A stretch of 64,000 nucleotides of DNA, from positions 62,001 to 126,000 of the forward strand of contig NZ_JAMXMY010000006.1 in assembly GCF_024055795.1 (NCBI RefSeq). The letters are read 5' to 3'. Under the pieces are notes generated by a model. It did not search any database and had not been told where the DNA came from. It saw only the letters and a list, made by a program, of their open reading frames with translations. Position numbers and translations under genes: made by a program. This stretch comes from Actinoallomurus purpureus. GTDB taxonomy: Bacteria > Actinomycetota > Actinomycetes > Streptosporangiales > Streptosporangiaceae. Of this stretch, positions 34,710-57,323 are shown in pieces. Position 1 is the stretch's first letter. Each line of letters starts with the position of its first letter.

Positions 34710-34723
34710 TAGAACGTGTTGCA
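34710..34723. promoter_or_regulatory. KstR-like operator upstream of the NPD oxidoreductase
   Basis: TAGAACGTGTTGCA fits TNNAACNNGTTNNA at all eight fixed positions and lies 20 bases before the NPD start. The same core AACGTGTT occurs at 57310. The pattern is that recalled for KstR, the TetR-type repressor of cholesterol catabolism. Confidence 0.65.
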
Positions 34724-34742
34724 GTTTCATGGATCGGCTCTT

Positions 34743-35867
34743 ATGGTCGGGACTGTGCGGACACGGGTAACGGAACTCTTCGGCATCGAGTATCCGATCT
34801 TCGCTTTCAGCCACTGTCGTGACGTCGTCGCCGCGGTCAGCCGCGCCGGCGGCATGGGCGTCCTCGGCGCGCTCTACTTCACGCCCGAACAGCTGGAGAC
34901 CGAGCTCAACTGGATCGACGAGCACGTCGGCGGCAAGCCGTACGGAGTCGACGTCGTCATGCCCGCCAAGTACGAGGGCGCGGACCTCGGCGACGCCGGC
35001 GAGCTGCTCGGCAAGCTCCAGGGCATGATCCCCGAGCGCCACCGGCAGTTCGTCAACGACCTCCTCGAACGCCACGGCGTCGACCCGCTCACCGAGGAGG
35101 GCGCCGGCCACTACCTCCTCGGCTGGACCGACGCCACCGCCCGCCCCCAGGTCGAGGTGGCGCTCAAGCACCCCATCGCCCTCCTGGCCAACGCGCTCGG
35201 CCCGCCCCCGGCGGACGTCGTCGAGCAGGCGCACCAGCACGGCGTGAAGGTCGCGGGCCTGGCCAGCAACGCCCGGCACGCCCGCAAGCAGGTCGAGGTC
35301 GGCGTCGACATCATCGTCGCCCAGGGCACCGAGGCCGGCGGCCACACCGGCGACGTGTCCACGATCGTCCTCATCCCCGAGGTCGTCGACGCCGTCGGCC
35401 CCGACACCATCGTGCTCGCCGCGGGCGGAATCGGCCGCGGCCGCCAGCTCGCGGCCGGCCTCGCGCTCGGCGCCGAGGGTGCGTGGACCGGCTCGATCTG
35501 GCTCACCGTCGAGGAGGCGGACACGCCCGAGGGCTCCCGCGACAGGCTCCTCGCCGCGACCTCCCGCGACACGGTGCGCTCCCGCTCCTGGACGGGCAAG
35601 CCCGCGCGGATGCTCAAGACCGCGTGGACCGACGCGTGGGAGTCGCCGGAGTCGCCCGGCACCCTGCCGATGCCCATGCAGTTCATGCTCATCTCCGACG
35701 CCCTCCGCCGGATCAACCGCGCCGGCGCGGGGGAGCTGACCACCTTCCCCGTCGGCCAGATCGTCGGCTCGATGAACCAGGTCAAGAGCACCTCCCAGGT
35801 GATCTACGACCTCATCGAGGAGTACGTCGAGACGATGGAGCGCCTGAACACCCTCACCGAGGGCTGA
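34743..35867 (+). CDS. Nitronate monooxygenase-like FMN oxidoreductase (NPD family)
   Basis: 374 residues; ATG 34743 (MVGTVRTRVTELFG) chosen because the family core starts at RVTELFGIEYPI; GTG 34755 is possible. FMN-binding barrel: SRAGGMGVLGAL, VDIIVAQGTEAGGHTGDVST (about 183-202) and LAAGGIGRGRQLAAGLALGA. The family includes true nitronate monooxygenases but also enoyl-CoA-type reductases; IpdC of steroid-ring degradation belongs here. A KstR-like operator just upstream and acyl-CoA genes nearby favour a catabolic CoA-thioester role over nitroalkane oxidation (inference). Confidence 0.85.
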   Translation: MVGTVRTRVTELFGIEYPIFAFSHCRDVVAAVSRAGGMGVLGALYFTPEQLETELNWIDEHVGGKPYGVDVVMPAKYEGADLGDAGELLGKLQGMIPERHRQFVNDLLERHGVDPLTEEGAGHYLLGWTDATARPQVEVALKHPIALLANALGPPPADVVEQAHQHGVKVAGLASNARHARKQVEVGVDIIVAQGTEAGGHTGDVSTIVLIPEVVDAVGPDTIVLAAGGIGRGRQLAAGLALGAEGAWTGSIWLTVEEADTPEGSRDRLLAATSRDTVRSRSWTGKPARMLKTAWTDAWESPESPGTLPMPMQFMLISDALRRINRAGAGELTTFPVGQIVGSMNQVKSTSQVIYDLIEEYVETMERLNTLTEG

Positions 35868-35885
35868 CCTCAGATCCGCGATCGC

Positions 35886-35929
35886 GGCCCCGGCGCACGG
35901 GCGGGTCCGGCCACCCGCGCGCCGGGGCC
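35886..35929. terminator. Hairpin between convergent NPD and adenosine deaminase genes
   Basis: GGCCCCGGCGC (35886-35896) pairs perfectly with 35919-35929; the loop contains a second inner pairing (GCGGGT/ACCCGC). Confidence 0.7.
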
Positions 35930-36113
35930 CCCGGTCACCACGGGTCCACCGGCCCGCCCCGCACGAGTCCCGTACAGAAGACTCGGCGAACGCGGCCGGA
36001 CCGCTGCGATTCCTCCCAAGCCGTCACCTTCGGGCGGTCGCCCCGCCGACGTTCACCGAGCCTTCCGCTCGGCCGCCGATGCACGGCAGACGCCGCGCTC
36101 CGGGGAACTCGGC

Positions 36114-37127
36114 TCAGGCCGACTGGACGGCGTCGATCTCGGCGAGGATCGCCCGCTTGCGGCCCTCTCCCAAGAAGGACGCACGGACGCCGTTGCGGGC
36201 CAGGTCGGCGAGCTCCTTCCGGCCGAGCCCCAGATCGCGTGCCGCCACCCGGTACTCGTTGGTCAGGGTCGTGCCGAACATCGGCGGGTCGTCGCTGTTC
36301 AACGTCACGTACAGGCCCTCCGCGAGCATGCGGGGGAGCGGGTGCGCGGCGACGTCCGGCACCTGTTTGGTGCACACGTTGGAAGTCGGGCAGACTTCGA
36401 GCGGGAGCTGCGTCTCTCGCAGGTACGCGACGAGCTCCGGGTCGTCCAGGCAGCTGAGGCCGTGCCCGATCCGCTCCGCCTTCAGCTCGCGGATCGCCTC
36501 CCAGATCGTCTCCGGCCCGGTCATCTCCCCGGCGTGCGGCACGCTGTGCAGACCGGCGTCCACCGCCGCGCGGAACGCGTCGCGGATCGCCCGCTCATGC
36601 CCGAGGCGGTCCTGCTCGATGCCGCCGATGCCGAAGCCGACGAGCTTCTCCGGCGGGTGGTTCAGCGCGTGGTCGGCGGTCGCGCGCGCCGCGTCGTCGC
36701 CGAACTCACCGGGGATGTCGAAGACGTACGCGACCTCGATCCGGTCGGCGACCTCCCGCGCCGCCAGGTCGAGCGCCTCGGTCACCGCCGGCATCGTCAT
36801 GCCGACCGACACGTGCGAGTACGGGGTGACGGTCAGCTCCACATAGCGGACGTTCTGCGCCGCCAGGTCCCGAGCCACGCCGGTGACCAGCGTCGCGACG
36901 TCCTCCGGCTCCCGTACGAGACCGTTGACCGCGAAGTAGACCTCGGCGAAGTGCGGGAAGTCGCGGAACTCGAAGAACTCCCGCAGGTCCGCCTCGTTCG
37001 TCGGCACACGGTGGTCCGTGTGCCGACGCGCGAGCTCCAGCACCGTGGGCACGGACGCCGAACCGACCAGATGAACGTGAAGTTCGACCTTGGGCAGCGC
37101 GTTGATGAAGTCATCTGTAACGGTCAT
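36114..37127 (-). CDS. add: Adenosine deaminase-family amidohydrolase
   Basis: 337 residues. Zinc ligands HVH at residues 17-19 (KVELHVHLVGSAS), HAGEMTGPETIWEAI near 198, RIGHGLS, and the late LNSDDPPMFGTTLTNEY with the ligand Asp pair near 279. Catalyses hydrolytic deamination of an adenine nucleoside. Actinobacteria often carry several paralogues; some of this length with LHVHLVGSAS-type starts act as aminodeoxyfutalosine deaminases in menaquinone synthesis, so the substrate may be aminodeoxyfutalosine rather than adenosine. No mqn genes are in the window to decide. Confidence 0.85.
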   Translation of the reverse strand: MTVTDDFINALPKVELHVHLVGSASVPTVLELARRHTDHRVPTNEADLREFFEFRDFPHFAEVYFAVNGLVREPEDVATLVTGVARDLAAQNVRYVELTVTPYSHVSVGMTMPAVTEALDLAAREVADRIEVAYVFDIPGEFGDDAARATADHALNHPPEKLVGFGIGGIEQDRLGHERAIRDAFRAAVDAGLHSVPHAGEMTGPETIWEAIRELKAERIGHGLSCLDDPELVAYLRETQLPLEVCPTSNVCTKQVPDVAAHPLPRMLAEGLYVTLNSDDPPMFGTTLTNEYRVAARDLGLGRKELADLARNGVRASFLGEGRKRAILAEIDAVQSA

Positions 37128-37224
37128 GGCCGGAAGCTAACAGCGCCCGATCAGCCCAGGCCAGAGATTTCGGTCGAAGCTGACGCGGATTGGTCAGTTT
37201 CCGCTCAGCGTGCTCCAGCCGCGG

Positions 37225-37611
37225 TCACCAGCGGAGCAGCCAGGCGAGGACGCGGCCGGCGATGAGATAGACGCCGGCGGCGAACAGCCAGTTCTCCGTC
37301 AGCTCCCTGCGGGCGTCGGCGTTGCGGAAGACGTCGTGGAACGGGGTCGCCAGCCAGGTGCCGGCCCGCAGTAGCCCGTGGACGATGTGGTTGTGCGGGT
37401 TGGCCCCGCCCCACGTCAGCGCGATGCCGAACAGCAGGACGAGCGTGACGGTCCACGCCACGAGCCACACGAACGCGCTCAGCCTGTCGTGCCGCTGGAA
37501 GCGCCGGACCCGTGTGGTGTTCCAGCGTCGGGCTCGGGTGTCGCCGGCCGCCTGCGTCGAACTCGCCTCGGCCGCCGGCTCGCGCCGCCGCCGCCATATC
37601 TGAGTGGCCAT
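37225..37611 (-). CDS. Small two-helix membrane protein, unknown function
   Basis: 128 residues, ATG 37611 with GGAGGAGG upstream. A basic N-terminus (RRRR, RARR) is followed by TM1 (AFVWLVAWTVTLVLLFGIAL, about 47-66), a loop with GGANPHNHIVHGLL and TM2 (LFAAGVYLIAGRVLAWLL, near the C-terminus). Not recognised; similar proteins are scattered in actinobacteria beside housekeeping genes. It starts a minus-strand run with adenosine deaminase. Confidence 0.7.
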   Translation of the reverse strand: MATQIWRRRREPAAEASSTQAAGDTRARRWNTTRVRRFQRHDRLSAFVWLVAWTVTLVLLFGIALTWGGANPHNHIVHGLLRAGTWLATPFHDVFRNADARRELTENWLFAAGVYLIAGRVLAWLLRW

Positions 37612-37808
37612 CTGTATTTCCTCCTCCAGAGGGCCCCCGGGGGGCTTCTTCTGCCCAGGTTGTCCCTCCGAAAAAAGCCACTAAACGGTCACTTTATGTA
37701 ATCGCCTGCGGCGACCGATGTGACCTGGCATGTTGAGCAGCCGAATCGAAGGTTCGTTCGCCCTCGACCCGCGGAAGGAGAGAGGCGTTTCGCGCGTAGG
37801 AGGGTGCG

Positions 37809-38378
37809 TTGTCCTGGTGCGCTTTCGTCGATGAGTCCGAGTCCAACCGCAAACTCGACCCCGACGTCTACATCCTCGTAGCGTCGATCATGGCGTCAGA
37901 TATCCGAGAGAGCGTGCGGGAAGTGATGGCATGCCTGAGGCTGCCTGGCGAGCATAAGGTGCACTGGTACCACGAATCGGACAAGCGGCGTCGCATTCTT
38001 ATCGAGACGGTGATCTCCCTTGAGGTCCTCCATCTCGCTGTCGTGCGCACCGGGGCAGTCGGGGAGACGTCGGAGCGTCGCCGGCGTAAGTGCATGGAGC
38101 GTCTGTTCTTCGAATTGTCTGCGATGGGTGCACACAAGATCATTTTCGAGGCGCGCGAGGCAAGGCAGAGCCGTAATGACCTTAACCTCGTCAAGGCGCT
38201 ACGATCGCGGCGGGAGATACACGCCGACATTCGGGTTGATCATCTATCTGGCCCCAGGGAACCGCTTCTTTGGATTCCGGACTTGGTGGCGGGTGCAGTC
38301 GTGGCCGCACGCTGCGGGGATCGTTCCTACCTTGACCAGATTGCGCCGCTGGTCACCGTCTGCGTGGTGGAGGCATAA
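37809..38378 (+). CDS. DUF3800-like protein
   Basis: 189 residues. TTG start with GGAGG about five bases upstream. The N-terminal FVDESESNRKLDPDVYILVAS matches the DUF3800 FVDESG start, and the C-terminal WIPDLVAGAVVAARCGD matches its (A/P)DLVAxAV motif. The fold is RNase H-like and the acidic residues (Asp/Glu of VDESE and late Asp) could bind metal. Members occur in phage-defence and mobile contexts; no partner gene is seen here. Codon use is visibly less GC-biased than its neighbours (for example GTAATGACCTTAACC), hinting at transfer. Confidence 0.75.
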   Translation: MSWCAFVDESESNRKLDPDVYILVASIMASDIRESVREVMACLRLPGEHKVHWYHESDKRRRILIETVISLEVLHLAVVRTGAVGETSERRRRKCMERLFFELSAMGAHKIIFEAREARQSRNDLNLVKALRSRREIHADIRVDHLSGPREPLLWIPDLVAGAVVAARCGDRSYLDQIAPLVTVCVVEA

Positions 38379-38437
38379 AAAGCCGCGAACCCGGGACCCC
38401 ACCGTCCAGCGGGAACTTCCCGGGCTCACTTCCTGAC

Positions 38438-38453
38438 CCGCTTCGCGAAGCGG
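38438..38453. repeat. 16-bp perfect palindrome between convergent genes
   Basis: CCGCTTCG followed by its reverse complement, downstream of a CCCGGG...CCCGGG pairing at about 38390-38423. Probably part of a terminator region for DUF3800 and crotonase genes. Confidence 0.45.
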
Positions 38454-38589
38454 CGGCGTTGCTACTAAGTGTGCTTCCCTCGAGGCTCTGCGTCAACTGG
38501 AATCTCGAAACGCCTGACGAAGTGGGACGGCCAGAGCCGGGTGAAGCCTTCCGAAGCGCGCAGTGACGGCGTCGCGGGGGCGCGCCGGG

Positions 38590-39402
38590 CTACTCGCCCT
38601 TGAAGACGGCGGGGCGCTTCTCCTTGAAGGCGAGGGAGCCTTCCTTGGCGTCGTTCGAGCCGATGACCGGCCAGCCGAGTTCGTCGGAGATCGTCAGGGC
38701 CTCGTCCTCAGGTAGGCCCTCGGTCCTGCGGTAGGTCTCCAGGATCGCCTGGACGGCAAGAGGACCGCAGGAGGCGATCTCGTCGGCGATCTCACGGGCG
38801 GTCTTCAGGGCCTGGCCGTCCGGGACGATCCGGTTGATCAAGCCCATCCGCAGGGCCTCGTCCGGGGTCACGGACCGGGCGGTGAGCAGGATGTCCATCG
38901 CGAAGGCGTACGGGATCTGGCGGGGGAGCCTGATGGCGCAGCCGCCCATGGGGAACAGGCCGCGCTTGGCCTCGTACAGCCCCAGCGTCGCGCCCTCGGC
39001 GACGACGCGGAGGTCGGTGCCGACGAGCAGTTCGGTCCCGCCGGCCACCGCGTACCCCTCGATCGCGCTGATCAGCGGTTTCTTGGGCCGGGAGTCCCGT
39101 AGCAGGCCCTTCCAGTGGAAGTTCTCGATCTCGGCGGCGCGCTGCCGTACCCGCTCGTCCTCCGACGGGCGGCCCATGGCCTTGAGGTCGGCGCCCGCGC
39201 AGAACTGGCCGTCGGCCCCGGTGAGGATCCCGACGCGTACGTCCGGGGTATCGGAGACGTAGGCCCACGCGTCGGCCATGCCGACGAGCATGTCGGTGCT
39301 GAGGGCGTTGCGGGCCTCGGGCCGGTTCATGGTCACGATCACGACGTGGCCGTCGCGCTCGACCGTGCAGTGCGGGGTGCTGATGGGCAGTCGTTCCGCC
39401 AT
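38590..39402 (-). CDS. Enoyl-CoA hydratase/isomerase (crotonase family)
   Basis: 270 residues. Crotonase hallmarks: VTMNRPEARNALSTDM, the oxyanion-hole strand GADGQFCAGADLKAMG (about 62-77), and AIEGYAVAGGTELLVGTDLR. The acid/base region reads YEAKRGLFPMGG, with Glu present. It hydrates or isomerises enoyl-CoA. Divergent from the acyl-CoA ligase at 39577 across 174 bases containing two degenerate KstR-like elements. Confidence 0.9.
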   Translation of the reverse strand: MAERLPISTPHCTVERDGHVVIVTMNRPEARNALSTDMLVGMADAWAYVSDTPDVRVGILTGADGQFCAGADLKAMGRPSEDERVRQRAAEIENFHWKGLLRDSRPKKPLISAIEGYAVAGGTELLVGTDLRVVAEGATLGLYEAKRGLFPMGGCAIRLPRQIPYAFAMDILLTARSVTPDEALRMGLINRIVPDGQALKTAREIADEIASCGPLAVQAILETYRRTEGLPEDEALTISDELGWPVIGSNDAKEGSLAFKEKRPAVFKGE

Positions 39403-39453
39403 TGCCGTCCTCCCTGCTCGCGGCCGCGTACGAGGTCACGCGACACCTAAAAC

Positions 39454-39467
39454 AAGAACGGATTCTA
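39454..39467. promoter_or_regulatory. Degenerate KstR-like element (echA/fadD intergenic, site 1)
   Basis: Minus strand TAGAATCCGTTCTT: two of the eight fixed positions deviate from TNNAACNNGTTNNA, but the TAGAA..GTTCT arms are kept. Confidence 0.4.
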
Positions 39468-39508
39468 GTGACGCGCGTCGCACTTCAACAGGGCTTGCCC
39501 GACAAAAC

Positions 39509-39522
39509 GAGAACGTGATCTA
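39509..39522. promoter_or_regulatory. Degenerate KstR-like element (echA/fadD intergenic, site 2)
   Basis: Minus strand TAGATCACGTTCTC: two deviations from the pattern. It lies 55 bases upstream of the acyl-CoA ligase start. Confidence 0.4.
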
Positions 39523-39576
39523 CTGCGGGCGGGACACCTCCGTGCGACCGGTACCGAGACGTACAGGGAGAATCCG

Positions 39577-41154
39577 ATGGGCTCGTTGGGCTTTTGGCGG
39601 CTGGCGCGAAACGATCCGGACTGGATCGCGGCCGTGGACCCGGACGGGACGGAGTACCGCGCCGGTGACCTGCTCGCCCGCTGCAACCGCGTCGTCCACG
39701 GGCTGCGCGACCTCGGGCTGGAGCCGGGCGACGGCATCTGCGGCCTGGTGCCCAACGGCGTCGAGGGCCTCATTTTCTACCTCGCCGCGTTGCAGGCCGG
39801 CTGGTACTACACGCCGGTCAACTGGCACCTCACCGGCCCCGAGATCGGTTACATCGTCGCGGACAGCGAGGCGAAGGCGTTCTTCGTGCACGAGCGCTAC
39901 GCCGCCGAGGGCGCGCGGGGAGCCGAGGAGGCGGGCCTCGACCCGCGGCGGCGCTTTTCGCTCGTGTCGGAGACGCGGAATGGGCATCGTGGCGAGGTGC
40001 CGGGGTTTCGGAGCTTCGACGAACTGGTCGACGGGCAGCCGGACACCCTCCCGGAGAACCGTACGAACGGTGCGACCATGCACTACACGTCGGGCACCAC
40101 GGGACGACCCAAAGGCGTGCGCCGCCGGCTGGCCGGGATCGACCCCGATGACAGCGCCGAGCTGATGACCTTCCTGCTGTCGTTCTTCGGCTTCACGCCG
40201 GGCCCGCCCAACGCCCACCTCGTCACCTCGCCGAACTATCACACGGCGGTCACCCAGTTCGGCGGGTCGGCGCTGCAGATGGGCCACACGCTCGTCTACA
40301 TGGACCGGTGGGACGCCGAGGAGGCGCTCCGCCTCATCGAGCGATACCGGATCACGAACACGCACATGGTGCCGACCCACTTCAAGCGCCTCGTGTCGCT
40401 GCCGGAGGACGTGCGCAAGCGGTACGACGTCTCCTCGATGAGGTGGGCGATCCACGCCGCCGCGCCCTGCCCGGTGCCGCTGAAGAAGGCGATGCTCGAC
40501 TGGTGGGGCGACTGCATCTGGGAGTACTACGCGGCCACCGAGGGCGGCGGCACGGTCGCGAGCCCCGAGAACTGGCGCGAGCACCCCGGCACCGTCGGCA
40601 AGGCCTGGCCGATCAGTGAGCTGCTGATCGTCGACGACGACGGCAACGAGGTGCCGCCCGGCACGCACGGCACGATCTACATGAAGATGGCGGGCGTCTC
40701 GTTCGAGTACAAGGGCGACCCCGAGAAGACGAAGGCGAATCAGCTCAAGGACCACTTCACCGTCGGCGACATCGGCTACCTCACCGAGGACGGCTTCCTG
40801 TTCCTGTCCGACCGCAAGGCCGACATGATCATCTCCGGCGGGGCGAACATCTACCCCGCCGAGATCGAGAACGAGATCCTCATCCACCCCAAGGTCGCCG
40901 ACGTCGCCGTCTTCGGCATCCCCGACGACGAGTGGGGCGAGCAGATCAAGGCCGTCGTCGAGCCCGCCGAGGGCGTGGCGCCGGGGCCGGAGCTGGCCGA
41001 GGAGATCCTCGCCACCCTGGACGGCCGGCTGGCCCGCATGAAGTGGCCCAGGTCCTTCGACTTCATCGAGCGGATGCCCCGCGAGCCCAACGGAAAGCTC
41101 CTCAAACGCAAGCTGCGGGACCCGTACTGGAAGGACCGCGACCATGCCATCTGA
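39577..41154 (+). CDS. Acyl-CoA synthetase (ANL superfamily, FadD type)
   Basis: 525 residues, ATG 39577 with GGGAG upstream. P-loop MHYTSGTTGRPKGV (about 168-181), A5 EYYAATEGGG, A7/A8 YLTEDGFLFLSDRKADM and SGGANIYPAEIENE, and the catalytic Lys in REPNGKLLKRKLR near 505. Activates a carboxylate to its CoA thioester via an adenylate. First plus-strand gene of a run with the double DUF35 protein and two thiolase-like proteins, so it probably loads the substrate for that pathway. Chain length or steroid nature cannot be read from sequence. Confidence 0.92.
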   Translation: MGSLGFWRLARNDPDWIAAVDPDGTEYRAGDLLARCNRVVHGLRDLGLEPGDGICGLVPNGVEGLIFYLAALQAGWYYTPVNWHLTGPEIGYIVADSEAKAFFVHERYAAEGARGAEEAGLDPRRRFSLVSETRNGHRGEVPGFRSFDELVDGQPDTLPENRTNGATMHYTSGTTGRPKGVRRRLAGIDPDDSAELMTFLLSFFGFTPGPPNAHLVTSPNYHTAVTQFGGSALQMGHTLVYMDRWDAEEALRLIERYRITNTHMVPTHFKRLVSLPEDVRKRYDVSSMRWAIHAAAPCPVPLKKAMLDWWGDCIWEYYAATEGGGTVASPENWREHPGTVGKAWPISELLIVDDDGNEVPPGTHGTIYMKMAGVSFEYKGDPEKTKANQLKDHFTVGDIGYLTEDGFLFLSDRKADMIISGGANIYPAEIENEILIHPKVADVAVFGIPDDEWGEQIKAVVEPAEGVAPGPELAEEILATLDGRLARMKWPRSFDFIERMPREPNGKLLKRKLRDPYWKDRDHAI

Positions 41155-41183: not shown

Positions 41184-42128
41184 ATGACTGCTGACGACCG
41201 GGAGCCGCTGGTCGCCGACCACGCCCTGGAGTTCCCCGGCGGGTACACCCGGTCGGTCGGCCCGGTGATCGGCCGTTTCCTCACCGAACTGCGCGACGGG
41301 CGTCTCGTCGGTGTGCGTACGGCCTCCGGCGGGGTGCTCTTCCCGCCCGCCGAGTACGACCCCGACGGCGAGGCGGTCACCGACGAGTACGTCGAGGTCG
41401 GTCCCGGCGGCACGGTGACGTCCTGGTCGTGGGTGTCGCGTCCGCGCGCGGTCCATCCCCTGGACCGGCCGTTCGCCTGGGCGCTGATCCGGCCCGACGG
41501 CGCCGGCACGGCCATCCTCCACGCCCTCGACGTTGGGGTGTTCGAGCCCGGCGCCGAACCACCGAAGGCCCTGCGGACGGGGATGCGGGTCCGGCCGAAG
41601 TGGCGCGCCGAGCGCACCGGCTCGATCAAGGACATCGAGTCCTTCCGGCCCGACATCACGATGATCACGGCACCGAGCCGGGCGGAGTACCGCCTGAACG
41701 CGGGCCGGGCGCTCACGAGGTTCCTCACCGGCGTATCCGAGGGCCGCTTCCTCGGCCACCGCTGCGACGTGTGCGGCAAGGTCTACGTGCCGATGAGGGG
41801 GCTGTGTCCGGTCGACGGCGTGCCGACCACCGAGGAGGTGGAGGTCCCCGACACCGGCACGGTCACGACGTTCGCGGTGAACAACATCCCGGACCCGCGC
41901 GCCCCCGAGGTGCCGTTCGTCTCGGCGTACATCCTGCTGGACGGGTCCGACATCGCCCTGCTCGCGCTGGTGGCAGGCGTCCCCGCCGACCAGGTGCGGA
42001 TGGGCATGCGCGTCAGGGCCGCCTGGAGGCCGCGCGAGGAGTGGGGCCGGACCATGGAGAACGTCAAGTGGTTCGAGCCCACCGGCGAACCCGACGTCCC
42101 CTTCGACTCGATCAAGGATTATCTATGA
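41184..42128 (+). CDS. Fused tandem DUF35 OB-fold protein
   Basis: 314 residues, ATG 41184 with GAGGAGGGG upstream. Two DUF35-type halves: the N-terminal one (about 25-150, GRFLTELRDGRLVGVRTASG ... LDRPFAWALIRPDGAG) has lost the zinc-ribbon cysteines. The C-terminal one (about 165-305) has FLGHRCDVCGKVYVPM and GLCPVDG, three Cys with Asp where the fourth is usual, followed by the OB strand VTTFAVNNIP. DUF35 proteins partner with thiolase-fold aldolases or hydratases; here two thiolase-like genes follow, the first with ATGA overlap. One OB domain per thiolase-like subunit is an attractive arrangement (inference). Confidence 0.87.
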   Translation: MTADDREPLVADHALEFPGGYTRSVGPVIGRFLTELRDGRLVGVRTASGGVLFPPAEYDPDGEAVTDEYVEVGPGGTVTSWSWVSRPRAVHPLDRPFAWALIRPDGAGTAILHALDVGVFEPGAEPPKALRTGMRVRPKWRAERTGSIKDIESFRPDITMITAPSRAEYRLNAGRALTRFLTGVSEGRFLGHRCDVCGKVYVPMRGLCPVDGVPTTEEVEVPDTGTVTTFAVNNIPDPRAPEVPFVSAYILLDGSDIALLALVAGVPADQVRMGMRVRAAWRPREEWGRTMENVKWFEPTGEPDVPFDSIKDYL

Positions 42129-43150
42129 CGACGGATGTCGCGGTCGTCGCGTTCGCGCAGACGAAGCACACGGGCGAGGATGCCGGGCTGACCGAGGTGG
42201 AGCTGCTCGCGCCGGTCATCTCCGAGATCAAGCAGACCACCGGGCTGAACCGCTTCGGGTTCACCTGCTCGGGGTCGCTGGACTACCTCGCCGGGGCGCC
42301 GTTCTCGTTCGTGTCCGCCCTGGACACGGTCGGGGCCTGGCCGCCGATCTCCGAGAGCCACGTCGAGATGGACGGCGCCTGGGCACTGTACGAGGCGTGG
42401 GTGCGCCTCCAGCACGGCGACGTCGACACCGCGCTGGTGTACGGGTTCGGCAAGTCCTCCCAGGGGTCGCTGCGGGAGATCATGACCTTGCAACTCGACC
42501 CGTACTACCTGGCGCCGCTCGGCCCCGACCAGGTGTCCCTCGCCGCCCTGCAGGCCCGCGCGTTCCTCGACGCCGGGCACAAGGAGGACGATCTGCGCGC
42601 CGTGGCCGCCCGGTCCCGTGCCGCCGGGCGCGACAACCCGTACGCCCTGGACCTGCCCGATCCGGGCGATGAGGGCTATGAGGTCGCGCCGCTGCGCCCG
42701 TACGACTGCGCGCCGATCACCGACGGGGCGGCGGCGGTCGTGCTGGCCGCCGGGGACCGCGCCCGCGAGCTTTGTGCCAACCCGGCCTGGATCCGCGGCA
42801 TCGACCACCGGATCGAGGCGCACTCCCTCGGCGCCCGCGACCTGAGCCGGTCGGAGTCGGCCGCGCTGGCGGCCGAGAAGGCGGGCGCGCGCGACGTCGA
42901 GGTGGCCGAGCTGCACGCGCAGTTCAGCCACGAGGAGCTGATCCTGCGGGCGGCGATCGGCCTGCCTGACGACGTCCCCGTCAATCCGTCCGGCGGGCCG
43001 CTCGCCGCCAACCCGGTGATGGCCACCGGCCTGATCCGCATCGGCGAGGCGGCGTCGTGGATCCACCGCGGCCGGGCACGCCGCACGCTCGGGCACGCGT
43101 CGTCCGGGCCCTGCCTGCAGCACAACCTCGTCTGCGTCCTGGAGGCCTGA
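42125..43150 (+). CDS. Thiolase-like lipid-transfer protein, nucleophile Cys absent
   Basis: 341 residues; ATG overlaps the DUF35 stop. Thiolase-fold features: TCSGSLDYLAGAPFSFVSAL near the N-terminus, YALDLPDPGDEG, YDCAPITDGAAAVVLAAGD, ELHAQFSHEELIL and the C-terminal NPSGGPLAANPVMATGLIRI. At the position of the thiolase nucleophile (usually xACASG) it reads SHVEMDGAWALYEA, so there is no Cys; Cys48 lies elsewhere. This argues against classical thiolysis and for an aldolase-type or structural role with the partner at 43154. Confidence 0.83.
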   Translation: MTTDVAVVAFAQTKHTGEDAGLTEVELLAPVISEIKQTTGLNRFGFTCSGSLDYLAGAPFSFVSALDTVGAWPPISESHVEMDGAWALYEAWVRLQHGDVDTALVYGFGKSSQGSLREIMTLQLDPYYLAPLGPDQVSLAALQARAFLDAGHKEDDLRAVAARSRAAGRDNPYALDLPDPGDEGYEVAPLRPYDCAPITDGAAAVVLAAGDRARELCANPAWIRGIDHRIEAHSLGARDLSRSESAALAAEKAGARDVEVAELHAQFSHEELILRAAIGLPDDVPVNPSGGPLAANPVMATGLIRIGEAASWIHRGRARRTLGHASSGPCLQHNLVCVLEA

Positions 43151-43153: not shown

Positions 43154-44311
43154 ATGGGGAACCCCTGCGCGGTGATCGGTGTCGGGCAGACCGAGTACCG
43201 CACCAAGCGCACCGACGTCTCCATCGCGGGGCTCGTCCGCGAAGCGGCCCTGCGCGCCCTCGAGGACGCCGGGCTGACGTTCAGGGACATCGACGCGGTC
43301 GTCATCGGCAAGGCCCCCGACCTGTTCGAGGGCGTGATGATGCCGGAGGCGTACCTCGCGGACGCGCTGGGCGCGCGGGGCAAGCCGATGATGCGGGTGC
43401 ACACCGCCGGGTCGGTCGGCGGGTCGACGGCCAACGTCGCGGCGAGCCTCGTCCAGGGCGGCGTGCACGACCGCGTGCTCGTCGTGGCGTGGGAGAAGCA
43501 GTCCGAGTCGAACGCGACGTGGGCGCTGTCCACGCACCCGCCGCTGTCGCCGACGATCGTCGTGGGCGCGGGCGGCTACTTCGCCCCGCACATCCGCGCG
43601 TACATGCGGCGCACCGGCGCGCCTGACCACATCGGCACGCTCGTCGCGGTCAAGGACCGGCAGAACGCGCTGAAGAACCCGTACGCCCACCTGCGCATCG
43701 CCGGCATCTCGCGGGAGATGGTCGAGATGACGCCGATGCTGTGGGAGCCGATCCGCTACCTGGAGACCTGCCCGTCCAGCGACGGTGCCGCCGCGATGGT
43801 GCTGGCGTCGGAGGACGCCGCCCGCCGCGCCCCGAACCCGCCGGCCTGGGTGCACGGCACCGCCATGCGCTCGGAGCCGATCTTCTTCGCCGGACGCGAC
43901 ACGGTGAACCCGCAGGCGGGCAAGGACTGCGCCGCCGACGTGTACCGGCAGGCGGGCATCACCGATCCGCGCCGGGAGCTGGACTGCGCCGAGACGTACG
44001 TCCCCTTCTCCTGGTACGAGCCGATGTGGCTGGAGAACCTCGGCTTCTGCGGTGATGGCGAGGGCTGGAAGCTCACCGAGAGCGGCGCCACCGCACTCGA
44101 CGGTGACATCCCCTGGAACGCCTCGGGCGGCGTGCTGTCGTCCAACCCGATCGGCGCGTCCGGGCTCATCCGTTTCGCCGAGGCGGCCCTGCAGGTGCGC
44201 GGGCTGGCCGGCGAACACCAGGTCGAGGGAGCGCGCAAGGCCCTCGGTCACGCGTACGGCGGCGGCGCGCAGTTCTACGCCATGTGGGTCGTCGGCTCCG
44301 AAAAACCCTGA
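43154..44311 (+). CDS. Thiolase-fold protein, nucleophile Cys replaced
   Basis: 385 residues, ATG 43154, 3 bases after the preceding stop. SCP-x/thiolase features: AVIGVGQTEYRTKR, AALRALEDAGLTFRDID, CPSSDGAAAMVLASED, ETYVPFSWYEPMWLENLG, NASGGVLSSNPIGASGLIRF and HAYGGGAQFYAMWVV. At the nucleophile loop it has MRVHTAGSVGGSTANVAAS, Thr in place of Cys. Found in fixed order with OB-fold and lipid-transfer proteins in many actinobacteria; probably a heteromeric CoA-ester lyase (retro-aldol type) rather than a ketothiolase. Confidence 0.83.
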   Translation: MGNPCAVIGVGQTEYRTKRTDVSIAGLVREAALRALEDAGLTFRDIDAVVIGKAPDLFEGVMMPEAYLADALGARGKPMMRVHTAGSVGGSTANVAASLVQGGVHDRVLVVAWEKQSESNATWALSTHPPLSPTIVVGAGGYFAPHIRAYMRRTGAPDHIGTLVAVKDRQNALKNPYAHLRIAGISREMVEMTPMLWEPIRYLETCPSSDGAAAMVLASEDAARRAPNPPAWVHGTAMRSEPIFFAGRDTVNPQAGKDCAADVYRQAGITDPRRELDCAETYVPFSWYEPMWLENLGFCGDGEGWKLTESGATALDGDIPWNASGGVLSSNPIGASGLIRFAEAALQVRGLAGEHQVEGARKALGHAYGGGAQFYAMWVVGSEKP

Positions 44312-44352: not shown

Positions 44353-45990
44353 ATGGAGTTCAACCACGCCGACCTGTTCGAAGAACTGGCGGACGCGATC
44401 GGGGAGCGGACCGCCGTGGTCGTCTTCGACTCGGCCCGCGGCACGGAGCGGCGGACGTACGCCGACCTGGACGCCGAGGCGAACCGGCTGGCCCACCACC
44501 TGCGGGACGCGGGCGTGGAGGCCGGGCGGCACGTCGGGATCCAGCTGTACAACGGGTTGGAGTACGTGACGGCCCTGCTCGCGGCGTTGAAGATCCGCGC
44601 CGTGCCGGTCAACGTCAACTACCGGTACGTCGAGGCCGAGCTGGAGTACCTCTACGACGACGCCGACCTCGTGGCGCTGGTGTACGACGCGGAGTTCGAG
44701 GACCGTGTGACCGCCGCCGCGGCCCGGGTGCCGGAGCTGGCGCACCGGATCGTCGTCGGCGGCACGTCCCCGCACGCGGTCGCCTACCCCGACGCGCTGG
44801 CGGGCAGCCCGGCGACGCGCGGGTTCGACAAGCGGTCCGGCGAGGACGTCTACATCATCTACACCGGCGGCACGACCGGCATGCCCAAGGGCGTCATGTG
44901 GCGGTGCGCGGACCTGTTCATGGCGTTCGGCGGCGGCAACCCGTACGGCGACCCGCTCGAGACGCCCGAGGCGGTGATCGAGACCGCGCGGGCCTCCGGG
45001 CCGCTGGTGATGATGCCCGCCGCGCCGCTCATGCACGGCGCCGCGCAGATGGCCACCTTCATCGGCTGGTGGATGGGCGCGACGATCGTCTACACCCGCC
45101 GGTTCGACGCGGCCGAGGTGCTGCGGGCCATCGGGGCGGAGAAGGTCTTCACCATCAACATCACCGGCGACGCGATGGCCCGGCCCCTCGCCGACGCCAT
45201 CGCCGCAGGATTGTACGACCTGAGCTCGCTGGCCGTGCTCAGCTCGACCGGCGCGATCCTGTCCGGCGCGGTCCGGGACCGCCTGCAGGAGCAACTGCCG
45301 AACGTCGCGATCCTCGACAACTTCGGATCCTCGGAGTCGGGCTTCACCGCGTCGGGCGTGGACGGCTCCTCCCCGGAGTCGGGGATGCGGTACCGGCCGA
45401 ACAACGCGCGGCTGCGGGTGCTGGACGACGCGCTCAAGGAGGTCCAGCCCGGGTCCGGGGTGATCGGCCAGGTCGCCAAGAGCGGGCACATCGCCTTCGG
45501 CTACTACAGCGACCCGGTCAAGACGGCGAAGACGTTCGTCGAGGTGGACGGGGTGCGCTGGCTGCTGACCGGTGACATCGCCACCGTGGAGGCGGACGGC
45601 ACCATCGCCATCTTCGGCCGGGGCTCCCAGTGCATCAACACCGGCGGGGAGAAGGTCTACCCCGAGGAGGTCGAGGCGGTGCTGAAGCGGCACCCCGCCG
45701 TCTTCGACGCGCTCGTCACGGGCATTCCCGACGAGAGGTTCGGCAGCCGCGTCGCCGCCGTCGTCCAGCCGTACGGCACGGCCCCGTCCCCCGAGGAACT
45801 GGACGCCCACTGCCGCGGCGTCCTGTCGGGCTACAAGGTGCCGCGCACGTACGCCTTCGTCGAGGAGATGCAGCGCTCACCCGCCGGCAAGGCCGACTAC
45901 CGCTGGGCCAAACAGATCGCCGAACACGCCGCAGCCCGCACGTACAACTCCGTCGCGCTGGGTATCCACCGTGATACGCCTGGCTCATGA
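44353..45990 (+). CDS. Acyl-CoA ligase (FadD19-like clade)
   Basis: 545 residues, ATG 44353 with GGAGG upstream. The P-loop has the unusual form YIIYTGGTTGMPKGVMWR (about 167-184), which, with the N-terminus MEFNHADLFEELADAI and VPVNVNYRYVEAELEYLYDD, is typical of the FadD19/FadD17 group of steroid side-chain ligases. Later motifs: NFGSSESGFTASG, TGDIATVEADGTIAIFGRGS, GGEKVYPEEVE and the C-terminal Lys in SPAGKADYRWAK. An extra tail of about 15 residues runs into the next gene by 4 bases. Side-chain steroid ligase activity is inference. Confidence 0.87.
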   Translation: MEFNHADLFEELADAIGERTAVVVFDSARGTERRTYADLDAEANRLAHHLRDAGVEAGRHVGIQLYNGLEYVTALLAALKIRAVPVNVNYRYVEAELEYLYDDADLVALVYDAEFEDRVTAAAARVPELAHRIVVGGTSPHAVAYPDALAGSPATRGFDKRSGEDVYIIYTGGTTGMPKGVMWRCADLFMAFGGGNPYGDPLETPEAVIETARASGPLVMMPAAPLMHGAAQMATFIGWWMGATIVYTRRFDAAEVLRAIGAEKVFTINITGDAMARPLADAIAAGLYDLSSLAVLSSTGAILSGAVRDRLQEQLPNVAILDNFGSSESGFTASGVDGSSPESGMRYRPNNARLRVLDDALKEVQPGSGVIGQVAKSGHIAFGYYSDPVKTAKTFVEVDGVRWLLTGDIATVEADGTIAIFGRGSQCINTGGEKVYPEEVEAVLKRHPAVFDALVTGIPDERFGSRVAAVVQPYGTAPSPEELDAHCRGVLSGYKVPRTYAFVEEMQRSPAGKADYRWAKQIAEHAAARTYNSVALGIHRDTPGS

Positions 45991-51714: not shown

Positions 51715-51729
51715 GAGGCCAATATATCG

Positions 51730-51747
51730 ATGTCTTCTATGAGACAT
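51730..51747. promoter_or_regulatory. LysR-type inverted repeat
   Basis: ATGTCT-TCTATG-AGACAT, perfect 6-bp arms containing T-N11-A, 16 bases upstream of the LysR start and 69 before the dioxygenase-like start. Confidence 0.6.
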
Positions 51748-51815
51748 GTCGACGATTGGCATTGGACCGATGAGTGACCCGCCCGGCACTCTGGAGGGGA
51801 CGAAGGAGGTTGGCC

Positions 51816-52352: not shown

Positions 52353-52374
52353 CGCGGGGCGCCGGTGATCCCTG

Positions 52375-53475: not shown

Positions 53476-54257
53476 CGAGGGCCCTCCAGGAGGTAGTAAC
53501 CGGTGAGGGTGAAGCCGGTGACACGATAACCGGCGGCGAGCGCGCCGCCCAGCGCGTCGCGCTGGGCCTGACGCCACTCCCGGGCGGCGTCCGGGTAGCA
53601 GGCCCGCATGGTGGTGATGTCGGCGGGCGTTCCGACCGCCACCGTGAGGGCGCCGGCCGGGTCGTGTCGCTCGGGGCGGCCCATCGAGTCCTCGTCCAGC
53701 GTGATCGCGGTGTCCTCGCCGGGCTCCGGCGTCACCGGGGTGCCCGCGACGGCCGCCGTCACCTCCGGGCTGTCGAGCGGCCAGGTCACGAGGAGACGGT
53801 CACTGGGATCGCCCATGTTCAGCTCGTCGGGCATCTCACCGTAGAAGTCCTCGAGGTACCTAACGGCGTGGGCCGCCAGTTTGGCCAGGTTGAAGTGGGC
53901 GTTGCGCCGAGCCAGCGGGTCGAAGGTCCAACTGATCGTCCTGACGCCCCGGGCCAGCGCCCACTCGCGCTGGTGCACCTTGATCGCGAACCCGACGCCC
54001 CGGCCCTGGACGGCGACGCCGGTGACGTGGGAGTGCAGACCGCCGTCCGCCGTCGGGAAGGCCGCGCATGCGCCGATCATGGTGTTGCCGTCGAAGGCCC
54101 CGGACACGTAGCCGCCGATGTGGCGGGTCACCTGCAGCATCTCGTACGGCATCGGGTCGGTCGGCCGCCAGATCTCGGCGAGCAGCGCCGAAGCGGTGAA
54201 GAGCTCCGTCGCGGCCGTCAGCTCGCGTACGTCCATATACCGATCGTGACGTCTCAT
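53472..54257 (-). CDS. GNAT-family acyltransferase, partner of the racemase
   Basis: 261 residues from ATG 54257; ATG 54236 (MDVRELTAATELF) is an alternative. The acetyl-CoA site is HVTGVAVQGRGVGFAIKVHQREWA (GxGxG/A equivalent), followed by ISWTFDPLARRNAHFNLAKL, a motif shared by the succinyltransferases found with N-succinylamino acid racemases. It would acylate D-amino acids before racemisation. Coupled by a 4-base overlap. Confidence 0.83.
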   Translation of the reverse strand: MRRHDRYMDVRELTAATELFTASALLAEIWRPTDPMPYEMLQVTRHIGGYVSGAFDGNTMIGACAAFPTADGGLHSHVTGVAVQGRGVGFAIKVHQREWALARGVRTISWTFDPLARRNAHFNLAKLAAHAVRYLEDFYGEMPDELNMGDPSDRLLVTWPLDSPEVTAAVAGTPVTPEPGEDTAITLDEDSMGRPERHDPAGALTVAVGTPADITTMRACYPDAAREWRQAQRDALGGALAAGYRVTGFTLTGYYLLEGPR

Positions 54258-54285
54258 CGATACCGTGGGCGCACCGGGGTCCGGG

Positions 54286-55383
54286 TCAGGGGATGACCGG
54301 CAGCGGGTTCCCGGTCTTGGACGTGGACGGAGACGGGGCGGGGGTCTTGGTGCCCTTCGGCGTACCGCCGGACGTTCCCTTCCCGGTCCGCCGCTTCGTG
54401 GTCGGCTGTGCGGCGTCGTTCCGCGTGCTCGGCGGCGCGATGGAGACGGGCAGGGGAATGAGGTTCTGGATGTAGACGTCGAACCACCGGCCGCTGCCGG
54501 TCAGGTCGGCGGTCTCGTTCCCGAACGGGCCCATCGCCTGCAGGGCCTTCTCCAGGTTGCCCTGGTTCCGCTGCAGGATCTGTACGACCCGGTGCAGGTT
54601 CTGCAGCGTGGGGCCGAGGGTCGCCTGGTTCTCGTTGATCGTCGCGGTGATCTGCTGGGACAGAGAGACGGTGCCGGTCAGCAGCTGGTCGATCACCGTC
54701 CGCCGGTCGTTGATCTCCTGCAGCAGCAGGCCGCCGTTCTGGACCAGCACGGCGAGGTCGCCGCTGCGGGAGGCCAGCAGTGAGGTGACATTGCTGGAGT
54801 GCTTCAGGAGCTGGTTCAGCTCGTCATCGCGGGAGGACACCGCCCGGGAGATCTTCTGCAGGCCCGCAAGGGTCCGCCGGACGTTCTCCGGGGAGCCCTC
54901 CATGGTCTGCGTCAGGGTGTCCATCGCCTTGGCCAGCTGCTTGGTGTCGATCTGACCGAGTTGCGCGCTCGCGTCCTGGAGGGCGGGAACCACCTCGTAC
55001 GGTGCCGTGGTGCGCGAGAGCGGGATCTCGTGGTCCGTCGGCTGCCGCCCGGGACCCTTCGGGTCGAGGGAGAGGAAGTGGGAGCCGAGCAGCGTCTTGA
55101 TCTTGATCTGTGCCCGGGTCTGCGTCCCGAAGTGCGCGCTGGCGGTGAACTTCACCTTCACATGGTCGCCGTCGAGGTCGACGCTGCTGACCTTGCCGAC
55201 CTTCACGCCGGCGATCCGGACCTCTTCCCCGGGCTTCAGCCCGGCCGCCTCGCTGAACGCCGCGGAGTACGTCGTGCCACCGGCGAAGTGCTGCAGGTTG
55301 AACGCGAGCAGTGTGGCCAGGCCGGCGGTCGCCAGGCCGGCGATGCCGATCGGCAGCGGGTTGCGCTCCCGGAATGGACGCAT
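54286..55383 (-). CDS. Orphan MCE (mammalian cell entry/MlaD) family protein
   Basis: 365 residues. N-terminal membrane anchor (IGIAGLATAGLATLLAFNL, about 12-30), MlaD domain (AGLKPGEEVRIAGVKVGKVS, KTLLGSHFLSLDPKGPG), a long coiled-coil helical region (about 140-300) and a Pro/Thr-rich tail. MCE proteins form periplasm-spanning lipid channels and are normally encoded as six genes with two yrbE permeases, none of which is here. It lies just downstream of steroid-type aldolase genes, so uptake of a lipidic substrate is plausible. Confidence 0.88.
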   Translation of the reverse strand: MRPFRERNPLPIGIAGLATAGLATLLAFNLQHFAGGTTYSAAFSEAAGLKPGEEVRIAGVKVGKVSSVDLDGDHVKVKFTASAHFGTQTRAQIKIKTLLGSHFLSLDPKGPGRQPTDHEIPLSRTTAPYEVVPALQDASAQLGQIDTKQLAKAMDTLTQTMEGSPENVRRTLAGLQKISRAVSSRDDELNQLLKHSSNVTSLLASRSGDLAVLVQNGGLLLQEINDRRTVIDQLLTGTVSLSQQITATINENQATLGPTLQNLHRVVQILQRNQGNLEKALQAMGPFGNETADLTGSGRWFDVYIQNLIPLPVSIAPPSTRNDAAQPTTKRRTGKGTSGGTPKGTKTPAPSPSTSKTGNPLPVIP

Positions 55384-55611
55384 CAGCGCGGCACCTCGCG
55401 TCGAATCTCGGCGGACTGGGCGCGCGGTCAGGGCCCGGCGTCCACGCGGGAACGCGTGTGACGGGCAGAGAACCCTGGCGCGTCAGTGAAAGGTACTGAC
55501 GCGTAGCGTGGCCGACAAGAACCCACTGTGCTCGATCCACCGCATACCTGCGCACAACGCCGCGTCCGCCCAGGTCAGCAATGCCTTACTAGCGGCGCCG
55601 AGTGACGTAAC

Positions 55612-56808
55612 TCACGTTCGGGCGATGATCGCCGATCCGTGCCCGAACAGACCCTGGTTCACGGCGATGCCCGCTCGTGCCCCCTCCACCTGGCGTTTTC
55701 CCGCCTGCCCGCGCAGCTGCCAGGTCAGCTCGCAGACCTGGGCGATCGCCTGCGCGGGGATCGCCTCACCGAAACAGGCCAGCCCGCCGCTCGGGTTCAC
55801 CGGAATCCGGCCGCCGAGCGCGGTCACGCCGTCGCGCAGCAGCCCCTCCGCCTCACCGGGCTTGCACAGGCCGATGTCCTCGTACCAGTCCAGCTCCAGC
55901 GCCGTGGACAGGTCGTACACCTCGGCGAGTGACAGATCCTCCGGTCCCAGCCCCGCCTCCTCGTACGCCGCCGCCGCGTTCGCCGCCCGGAACGGCCGCT
56001 CGGGCGGATCGACCGCCACGCTGGAGTCGGTCGCGAAGTTCGGCAGTTCGAGGGCGGTGTTCGGGAAGGTCGGAGTGGCCGTCGCGATCGCGCCGATGCG
56101 CACGGGAGCCCGGTGGCCGCGCCTCCTCGCGTACTCGACGCTGGACAGGACGACCGCGGCGCCCCCGTCGCTGGTGGCGCAGATGTCCAGCAGCCGCAGC
56201 GGATCGGCGACCACCGGCGACCCGGCGACGTCGGCCGCCGTGACCTCCTTCCGGTACCGCGCGTACGGGTTGTGCCGGCCGTGGCGGGCGTTCTTGATCT
56301 TCACGGCGGTGAAGTCGTCCCGGGTGGCGCCGTAGGTCGCCATGCGCCGCCGCGCGTACAGCGCGAAGTACACCGGATTGGTCGCGCCCAGCACCCGGAA
56401 CCGCAGCCAGTCCGGGTCGTCGGGCCGGTCGCCGCCGACGGGGGCGAAGAACCCCTTGGGGGCGGCGTCGGCGCCGACCACCAGCGCGACGTCCACGAGA
56501 CCCGCGAGGATCTGGGCCCGCGCCGTGCTCATCGCCTGCGCGCCCGAGGCGCACGCCGCGTAGCAGCTCGACACGCGCGCGCCCGACCAGCCCAGCGCCT
56601 GGGCGAACGTCGCCCCCGCGATGAACCCCGGGTAGCCGTTGCGGATCGTGTCGGCGCCCGCGACGTAGTCGATGTCCGTCCAGGCGAGCCCGGCGTCCTT
56701 CAGCGCGTCGCGCGCCGCCGCCAGGCCGTACTCCACGAAGTTCCGCCCCCACTTGCCCCACGGGTGCATGCCCGCGCCGAGGACGGCGACCTCTCCGCCG
56801 GTGTTCAT
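55612..56808 (-). CDS. Ltp2-like thiolase-fold acyl-CoA aldolase (lipid-transfer protein)
   Basis: 398 residues; ATG 56808 overlaps the DUF35 stop. Features: VAVLGAGMHPWGKWG, SSCYAACASGAQAMSTARAQ (Cys retained), SLAEVYDLSTALELDWYED (Tyr-rich active-site stretch), PVNPSGGLACFGEAIPAQA and the C-terminal GIAVNQGLFGHGSAIIA. This matches the Ltp2/SCP-x-like group that, with a DUF35 partner, cleaves beta-hydroxyacyl-CoA by retro-aldol reaction at the end of steroid side-chain degradation. A KstR-like operator lies upstream of the pair. Substrate is inferred. Confidence 0.85.
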   Translation of the reverse strand: MNTGGEVAVLGAGMHPWGKWGRNFVEYGLAAARDALKDAGLAWTDIDYVAGADTIRNGYPGFIAGATFAQALGWSGARVSSCYAACASGAQAMSTARAQILAGLVDVALVVGADAAPKGFFAPVGGDRPDDPDWLRFRVLGATNPVYFALYARRRMATYGATRDDFTAVKIKNARHGRHNPYARYRKEVTAADVAGSPVVADPLRLLDICATSDGGAAVVLSSVEYARRRGHRAPVRIGAIATATPTFPNTALELPNFATDSSVAVDPPERPFRAANAAAAYEEAGLGPEDLSLAEVYDLSTALELDWYEDIGLCKPGEAEGLLRDGVTALGGRIPVNPSGGLACFGEAIPAQAIAQVCELTWQLRGQAGKRQVEGARAGIAVNQGLFGHGSAIIART

Positions 56809-57272
56809 TCGCCCTCCTCGCTCACCGGGCGCCACTTCCAGACGAGGTGACCGGGATCGAGCTCCTCGACGACGAGCTCGACCTCCATGCCGACGGCCAG
56901 GTCGTCGATGCCCACGCCGCGTACCACCTGGCCCAGGACGACGATGCGCTCGGCCGCCAGCTCGACGGCGGCGATGGCGTACGGCTCGAAGTCCTCGCCC
57001 GAGACGTACGGCGGCGGGGGCCGGTAGCGCGCGTCGGCGTACGACCAGATCCGGCCGCGGTCGGACAACGGGGTCGTGACCAGCTCGTCGCCGTCGCAGG
57101 CGGGATTGCGGCACGTCAGGGTCTGTGGCGGGAAGTAGACGGTCCCGCAGGCGGTGCAGCGGGTCCCGGTCAGCCGCGGCGGGTCGACGGTGAACCAGCC
57201 GTCGACCACGCTGACCGGCCCCGGACCGGCTTTGGCCGTCGCGGGTTCGTCCCCGGGTCGGTTCTGCGCCAC
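56805..57272 (-). CDS. DUF35 OB-fold partner protein (ChsH2-C-like)
   Basis: 155 residues. Zinc ribbon CTACGTVYFPP ... CRNPAC with all four Cys, then an OB fold (GRIWSYADARYRPPPP, AIAAVELAAERIVVLGQVV). Binds the adjacent Ltp2-like aldolase by family precedent. Its promoter region (57273-57354) carries an exact KstR-like element 38 bases upstream. Confidence 0.88.
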   Translation of the reverse strand: MAQNRPGDEPATAKAGPGPVSVVDGWFTVDPPRLTGTRCTACGTVYFPPQTLTCRNPACDGDELVTTPLSDRGRIWSYADARYRPPPPYVSGEDFEPYAIAAVELAAERIVVLGQVVRGVGIDDLAVGMEVELVVEELDPGHLVWKWRPVSEEGE

Positions 57273-57309
57273 CGGCGACCTCCTAGTTGACCAAGCGCCC
57301 GCTCAAATC

Positions 57310-57323
57310 TATAACGTGTTCTA
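57310..57323. promoter_or_regulatory. KstR-like operator upstream of the DUF35-Ltp operon
   Basis: TATAACGTGTTCTA fits TNNAACNNGTTNNA at all fixed positions. It shares the core AACGTGTT with the element at 34710-34723. Confidence 0.65.

Follow-up and report, generated by a model that had tools for sequence, protein, structure and literature searches.

Putative operators of a KstR-like repressor before dispersed sterol side-chain genes in Actinoallomurus purpureus

The stretch of DNA analysed here, referred to below as the window, comprises 64,000 nucleotides of Actinoallomurus purpureus (positions 62001-126000 of contig C49, in a 9.25-Mb draft genome of 52 contigs, 97.9%). It contains three separated gene units, each preceded by palindromes that resemble the operator of KstR, the repressor of a mycobacterial regulon. 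The first unit is the gene of an NPD/nitronate-monooxygenase-family oxidoreductase (NPD gene); the second consists of an EchA19-like hydratase gene and, across a shared intergenic region, a series of fadD, DUF35, two thiolase and again fadD genes; the third is a DUF35-thiolase pair (Table 1). An earlier note, made from the letters of the window, had placed these genes in steroid or branched acyl-CoA catabolism, and the families to which they can be assigned fit the steroid type. The reading that we favour, with a probability of about 0.8, is that the palindromes are putative operators of a dispersed KstR-like regulon for sterol side-chain genes.

Candidate sites were scored with a symmetrised matrix built solely from the 47 M. 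smegmatis and M. tuberculosis KstR sites given in Table 3 of PMC1995591, with no data from the present genome; the training sites themselves score between 19.0 and 33.7 bits. The pattern TNNAACNNGTTNNA has three exact matches in the window, and shuffled versions contain 0.09 per window, none of 100 shuffles reaching three. Two of these matches, before the NPD gene and before the DUF35-thiolase pair, had been listed in the earlier note with a common core, AACGTGTT, and both hold up; the third, within a fadD gene, had not been listed. The matrix ranks the former two first and second in the window, and third and fourth are the two sites between the EchA19-like gene and fadD. The latter, together with the site at 34651, had been described as degraded versions; all three positions proved right, 34651 being weak. 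In all, five sites in the window score at least 14 bits, where 50 first-order Markov sequences give an expectation of 0.08 sites per 64 kb; the fifth, at 26101 (15.7 bits), is intragenic.

Table 1. Candidate operator sites and the genes of the three units in the window.
Feature	Position	Strand	Evidence
Weak second operator copy upstream of NPD gene, TGCTACGTGTTACA	34651..34664	+	9.9 bits; alone at about chance level
Main KstR-type operator of NPD gene, TAGAACGTGTTGCA	34710..34723	+	27.8 bits
NPD/nitronate-monooxygenase-family oxidoreductase	34755..35867	+	Pfam NMO, 160.3 bits
EchA19-like enoyl-CoA hydratase	38590..39402	-	PRK07799, over cut-off; NF051848 EchA19, 342.6 bits (cut-off 400)
Operator AAGAACGGATTCTA between EchA19 and fadD	39454..39467		18.2 bits
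Operator GAGAACGTGATCTA between EchA19 and fadD	39509..39522		17.4 bits
Acyl-CoA synthetase	39577..41154	+	PRK12406 and FadD4 as best models, neither over cut-off
DUF35 protein, OB_ChsH2_C matches in two stretches	41184..42128	+	Pfam
Lipid-transfer-protein thiolase	42125..43150	+	PRK07937, over cut-off
Lipid-transfer-protein-type thiolase	43154..44311	+	PRK08313, over cut-off
Acyl-CoA synthetase	44353..45990	+	PRK07798, over cut-off
Exact match to TNNAACNNGTTNNA within fadD, probably fortuitous	44548..44561	+	8.9 bits; intragenic
MlaD/Mce4_CUP1 protein	54286..55383	-	60.5% identity to protein of contig C22 mce operon (L286:4030-12881)
PRK06059-type lipid-transfer thiolase	55612..56808	-	Over cut-off
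zf-ChsH2/OB_ChsH2 (DUF35) protein	56805..57272	-	Pfam
Operator of DUF35-thiolase unit, TAGAACACGTTATA read toward genes	57310..57323	-	25.8 bits

In the genome as a whole, every exact match to the pattern that scores at least 20 bits (8/8) lies in non-coding DNA, 25-88 bp 5' of a predicted start. Of the 391 kb that was read, 7.2% is non-coding and lies no more than 150 bp 5' of a start (a rough base rate, the stretches having been chosen around sites), and random placement over such a fraction would give eight of eight with p of about 7e-10. Beyond the window, strong sites precede a thiolase gene over the 'steroid 3-ketoacyl-CoA thiolase' cut-off (FadA5-type); a CYP125-like cytochrome P450 gene; an SDR gene followed by a second CYP125-like P450 gene; a PPOX-ferredoxin-ADH unit; a PRK07814 SDR gene; an F420_Rv3520c oxidoreductase gene; and the FadD-FadE-FadE-ChsH-thiolase operon described below. 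The side-chain gene types cyp125, fadA5, echA19, chsE/H and ltp are thus represented behind operators, by family assignment only. No fewer than four contigs carry these units (C2, C12, C17 and C49).

Two further sites may be recorded here. At C15:90864 (L261), TAGAACCTGATCTA (14.7 bits) lies 103 bp 5' of the gene of a 226-aa protein, with one half broken as in the window site 39509. On contig C1, two matches 36 bp apart (93578 and 93614; L020:5079 and 5115) are situated between divergent genes for an MFS-like transporter, recognised by eye, and for an ABATE/CGNR protein. The TetR-sized gene at this double site was considered as the regulator and rejected, since Pfam assigns it ABATE and CGNR zinc-finger domains and no TetR domain; the double site is probably the operator of another regulator.

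The earlier note had placed the regulator outside the window and proposed a dispersed regulon, to be checked by a search for a KstR-like TetR protein, and such a protein is indeed encoded elsewhere, at C2:219141-219734. It scores 139.8 bits with the KstR model NF033703, the next TetR protein of the genome reaching 45 bits, and Pfam recognises TetR_N and TetR_C_20 in it. In the PDB it is matched best by KstR chains, from which its helix-turn-helix segment, QMRTVAERAGVALGTLYRYFPSK, differs in 4 of 23 residues. We call it KstR-like and not KstR, because it stays below the equivalog cut-off of the model, a level exceeded by proteins of 6 of the 60 genomes searched, the present one not among them. 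Between its gene and a divergent fadD17-like gene lies its own operator, TAGAACAGATTCTA (C2:218947), and within 420 bp 5' of the regulator gene a site with at most two mismatches to either of two consensus forms is present in all 56 related loci (L171-L226) as well as in the present genome. This operator is asymmetric (TAGAACNNATTCTA): 52 of the 56 loci have ATT in place of GTT, whereas GTT is found in 24 of 24 Streptomyces-type loci in the same scan. The asymmetric half-site was considered as the -10 box of the divergent gene and rejected, since the conserved TGGACA lies too close. Fixation of this half-site may set a weaker affinity for autoregulation.

A tree was built from 45 TetR proteins, KstR-like and others, and in it the KstR-like type of the Streptosporangiales falls into a single group of 21 (94/81); 4 of the 30 prepared proteins (L105, L106, L108 and L120) were left out, their called starts lying inside the gene. 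The same tree leaves the relation of this group to true KstR unsettled, with very long outgroup branches and a bootstrap that did not converge. Streptomyces possesses a KstR-like lineage of its own (L227-L250); in all 24 of its loci the gene is preceded by TAGAACAAGTT, and additional sites often lie close by. One of these loci, L245, is recorded as Microtetraspora glauca NRRL B-3735; its KstR-like gene is of the Streptomyces type and falls among those of Streptomyces in the tree, and the record may be mislabelled.

It could be supposed that the palindromes are bound by a different TetR protein with a similar motif, and not by the C2 protein; 54 stretches of the genome do pass E <= 1e-3 with the KstR profile. 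With a single exception, however, these score 45.1 bits or less, no protein other than that of C2 comes close to KstR, and the constant presence of the operator upstream of its gene makes this alternative quite improbable.

The operon divergent from the regulator gene begins with a CasI/FadD17-like synthetase, followed by two acyl-CoA dehydrogenases, a ChsH-type protein and a PRK07855 lipid-transfer thiolase, the last being 72.7% identical to its counterpart in the same setting in genome G037. A single open reading frame encodes the ChsH-type protein (463 aa), which carries OB_ChsH2 and, at its C terminus, a MaoC domain and is probably a ChsH2-ChsH1 fusion. The names ChsE, ChsH and Ltp2 would apply in this operon by gene setting, and the steps of these enzymes are to be understood as putative. 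The third window unit had been called a DUF35-Ltp2 operon in the earlier note, which is correct as to a zf/OB-ChsH2 (DUF35) gene with a lipid-transfer thiolase. The name Ltp2 suits that thiolase only loosely, because it is PRK06059-type and distant (102 bits) from the lipid-transfer protein of PDB structure 6ok1, solved with ChsH2(DUF35); a better Ltp2 candidate is C2:212449-213618, which is PRK07855-type and lies behind FadE and ChsH genes. The lone MlaD/Mce4_CUP1 gene downstream of the pair is possibly the third gene of its unit.

Conservation of the window sites was followed in relatives. A homologue of the NPD protein at E <= 1e-100 is encoded in 33 of the 60 genomes (own included), and the search returned 54 matches, 20 of them at 71% identity or more; 19 of these, the present one included, have readable upstream DNA, the orthologue of G002 being left out because a contig end cuts it off. 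All 19 have TAGAACNNGTT at -28 to -45, with two variable bases in the middle and with GTTGCA in 16 cases. In 13 of the 19, by a count made by eye, the main operator has a second copy 42-79 bp above it, at a distance of 54-59 bp in 10 cases, counting sites that are among the three best and have 2-5 mismatches, at most one of them in the AAC/GTT core. By this comparison, the predicted site at 34651 is a weak version of a conserved second copy. Among the 34 more distant NPD matches, 10 were read (53-60% identity), and a site with at most two mismatches was found in one (G043). The two sites between the EchA19-like gene and fadD are identical in the genus members G001 and G005, and take the forms GAGAACGGATTCTA (39454) and TAGAACGTGATCTA (39509) in G023, of another genus; the pair is present in four of the five intergenic regions read, with a single site in G032. 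The operator at 57310 is kept in all four genus members that have the DUF35-thiolase unit (own included), and an altered form occurs in G043.

Where promoters can be recognised, the operators overlap them. At the NPD gene, the right half of the operator coincides with a -35 box, TTGCAG (34719-34724), which is followed after 17 bp by TATGGT (34742-34747). At the same spacing, TANNNT is found in 15 of the 19 orthologues, that is in 15 of the 16 with GTTGCA and in none of the three without it. Since the -10 box tracks GTTGCA, its deviation from the palindrome probably reflects a promoter box rather than decay. The start chosen by the gene caller is the in-frame ATG at 34743; the arrangement of the promoter boxes points to GTG 34755, directly after TATGGT, and with it to a leaderless message. 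In front of the divergent operon on C2, the operator fills the spacer of TGGACA-N17-TAGTTT, and T[TG]GACA-N17-TANNNT with an operator in the spacer recurs in 41 of the 56 related loci. Coverage of promoter elements by bound KstR has been argued for the mycobacterial case (PMC1995591).

With the sites, their conservation, the regulator gene, the gene families and the negative ring searches described below as direct observations, we propose the following scheme. The KstR-like repressor, encoded on another contig than the window, would bind TAGAACNNGTTCTA-type palindromes as a dimer, cover the promoter boxes and block RNA polymerase, and in this way would repress its own gene and the dispersed sterol side-chain genes. 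The predicted targets in the window are the NPD gene, the EchA19/fadD-DUF35-thiolase-thiolase-fadD genes and the DUF35-lipid-transfer thiolase pair; elsewhere they would include the FadA5-type thiolase, the two CYP125-like P450s, the SDRs, the PPOX-ferredoxin-ADH unit, the F420 Rv3520c-type oxidoreductase and the FadD-FadE-FadE-ChsH-thiolase operon. Repression would probably be lifted by a sterol acid or its CoA ester; release of KstR by 3-oxo-cholestenoic acid or its CoA ester has been reported (PMC9782250). The end product might be a compound such as androstenedione, and the exact step of each enzyme is likewise conjectural.

Several observations speak against a regulon of this kind. The regulator falls well short of the NF033703 equivalog cut-off of 280 bits, and the CasI/FadD17-like synthetase lies below the CasI cut-off (564.9 of 900 bits). 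The GTT half is broken in both 39454 and 39509. Among 14 loci that have the thiolase of the 57310 unit, 9, all of them in other genera, yielded no such operator. The raw pattern, whose genome-wide occurrence the earlier note had proposed as a check, is not promoter-specific: only 13 of its 34 matches are promoter-proximal, 20 being intragenic and 21 not promoter-proximal. As evidence in its own right this loose pattern was rejected, the reversed control pattern occurring in 18 places; a count of TAGAACNNGTTCTA with two mismatches was also rejected, the reversed control being commoner (229 vs 105, among the matches listed). Promoter-proximal sites make up 1 of the 5 exact matches at 14-20 bits and 4 of the 21 below 14 bits. 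The loose pattern is thus unspecific and the full palindrome is not, and the check comes out positive for the strong sites (8/8). Chance matches in intergenic DNA, which the many intragenic occurrences of the loose pattern might suggest, are very improbable as an explanation: for 34710, 39454, 39509 and 57310 matrix scores, promoter position and conservation all contradict it, an argument that does not cover 34651.

The genes of ring cleavage were sought separately. In the present genome there is no KshA_C match at E <= 1e-3 (one profile, 52-contig draft), no HsaC-like match at E <= 1e-50 (single-protein query) and no KstD-like match at E <= 1e-60 (single-protein query, 26 of 52 candidates scored). 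Because ring-opening enzymes were not found, we incline slightly to the view that the regulon would serve side-chain removal only, without ring cleavage. This part of the interpretation is weakened by its basis, one profile and two thresholded single-protein queries on a draft assembly, and by the HsaC-like query, which itself stays below the HsaC cut-off (328.9 of 450 bits).

Searches of 37 genomes of the family (own included) give a KstR-type protein at 1e-25 in 32, of which 4 exceed the equivalog cut-off. All four of the latter have strong KshA (E <= 1e-80) and HsaC-like matches; among the remaining 28, the two occur together in 7 and are both missing from 21. A ChsH2-type protein (at least 168 bits) is encoded in 14 of the 21 family genomes without KshA and HsaC-like matches. 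Strong KshA and HsaC-like matches coincide in the same 11 of the 37 genomes. Weak KshA_C matches were counted as absence here; those in G002 (107 bits) and G032 (92 bits) pass the Pfam cut-off, and that in G013 does not. It is conceivable that ring cleavage is present and was missed, through an assembly gap or because the enzymes are too distant, and that this is an ordinary full KstR regulon; the genome is a draft, and the genus members G004, G006 and G007 do carry KshA, HsaC-like and KstD-like genes. Gaps would have to strike all of the 21 family genomes in which both KshA and HsaC-like matches are missing, however, and we regard this explanation as unlikely. KstR-like side-chain control seems to be more widely kept in this family than ring cleavage.

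A further KstR-like gene adjoins kshA in three genomes read (G022, G029 and G035). This third KstR-like type stands beside kshA and ring-cleavage-type genes (L152:7480, L153:11196 and L154:11295), and the intergenic DNA of the L152, L153 and L154 stretches yielded no site within two mismatches of TAGAACNNGTTCTA. The odds seem to us about even that the Streptosporangiales possess a separate KstR-like lineage which has kept the mycobacterial operator and controls the side chain only, ring degradation being an optional addition with its own paralogue beside kshA, as in the three genomes just named.

The absence of ring-cleavage matches in the present genome would also agree with another substrate. 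The palindromes could be real operators of the KstR-like protein that serve the breakdown of some other branched isoprenoid acyl chain, the CYP125-like and thiolase families having been recruited from sterol catabolism; the two P450s match no curated NCBIfam CYP125 model, their best PDB chain being CYP125MRCA, with CYP125 and CYP124 chains lower. The breadth of the side-chain set, including a thiolase over the steroid-specific cut-off, and the FadE-FadE-ChsH-thiolase operon headed by a CasI/FadD17-like synthetase nevertheless make such a substrate rather improbable, and a KstR-like regulon for sterol side-chain genes remains our preferred account.

If correct, this account carries the mycobacterial regulon over to another group, a large order of actinomycetes living in soil. 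It would also point to a modular arrangement in which removal of the side chain, to which KstR-type control is tied, is separate from cleavage of the rings. Strains that naturally halt after side-chain removal would be of practical interest as sources of C19/C22 steroid building blocks, for which mycobacteria need an engineered block of ring cleavage. A directly testable explanation also follows for the incomplete use of sterols in those actinomycetes that surveys of whole pathways would class as non-degraders. Among the top-ranked open-licence PMC papers, no title or abstract opening concerned a KstR regulon in Streptosporangiales.

The closest known system is the KstR regulon described for M. 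smegmatis and M. tuberculosis, with the operator TAGAACNNGTTCTA and an autoregulated repressor divergent from a fad gene; the M. tuberculosis list includes Rv3515c/Rv3516, Rv3520c, Rv3545c/Rv3546 and Rv3573c/Rv3574 (PMC1995591). The present system is alike in the operator, in the repressor gene divergent from a fad gene and in its target families, family by family (PMC1995591). It differs in a regulator below the equivalog cut-off, in ring genes that were not found, in its dispersal over at least four contigs and in its asymmetric own operator. Among these Rv tags are presumably those of fadD19/echA19 and cyp125/fadA5, and we take the NPD gene to be the counterpart of Rv1894c and the DUF35-thiolase pair that of Rv1628c-Rv1627c. 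A survey of the 9,10-seco steroid pathway names Thermomonospora as a degrader and seeks whole pathways, in contrast to the side-chain set without KshA/HsaC matches seen here (PMC4810484). The third comparison is with the igr-type operon. Its products ChsE, ChsH and Ltp2 carry out the loss of the side chain from C22. The kstR-divergent operon resembles it in having a FadD17/CasI-like synthetase, two acyl-CoA dehydrogenases, ChsH and a PRK07855 thiolase, and differs from it in that the synthetase comes first, ChsH2 and ChsH1 are probably fused, and the genes lie directly behind the kstR operator. Apparently without ring cleavage, and with a divergent regulator, the present system belongs to a type already known and extends it to a new order.

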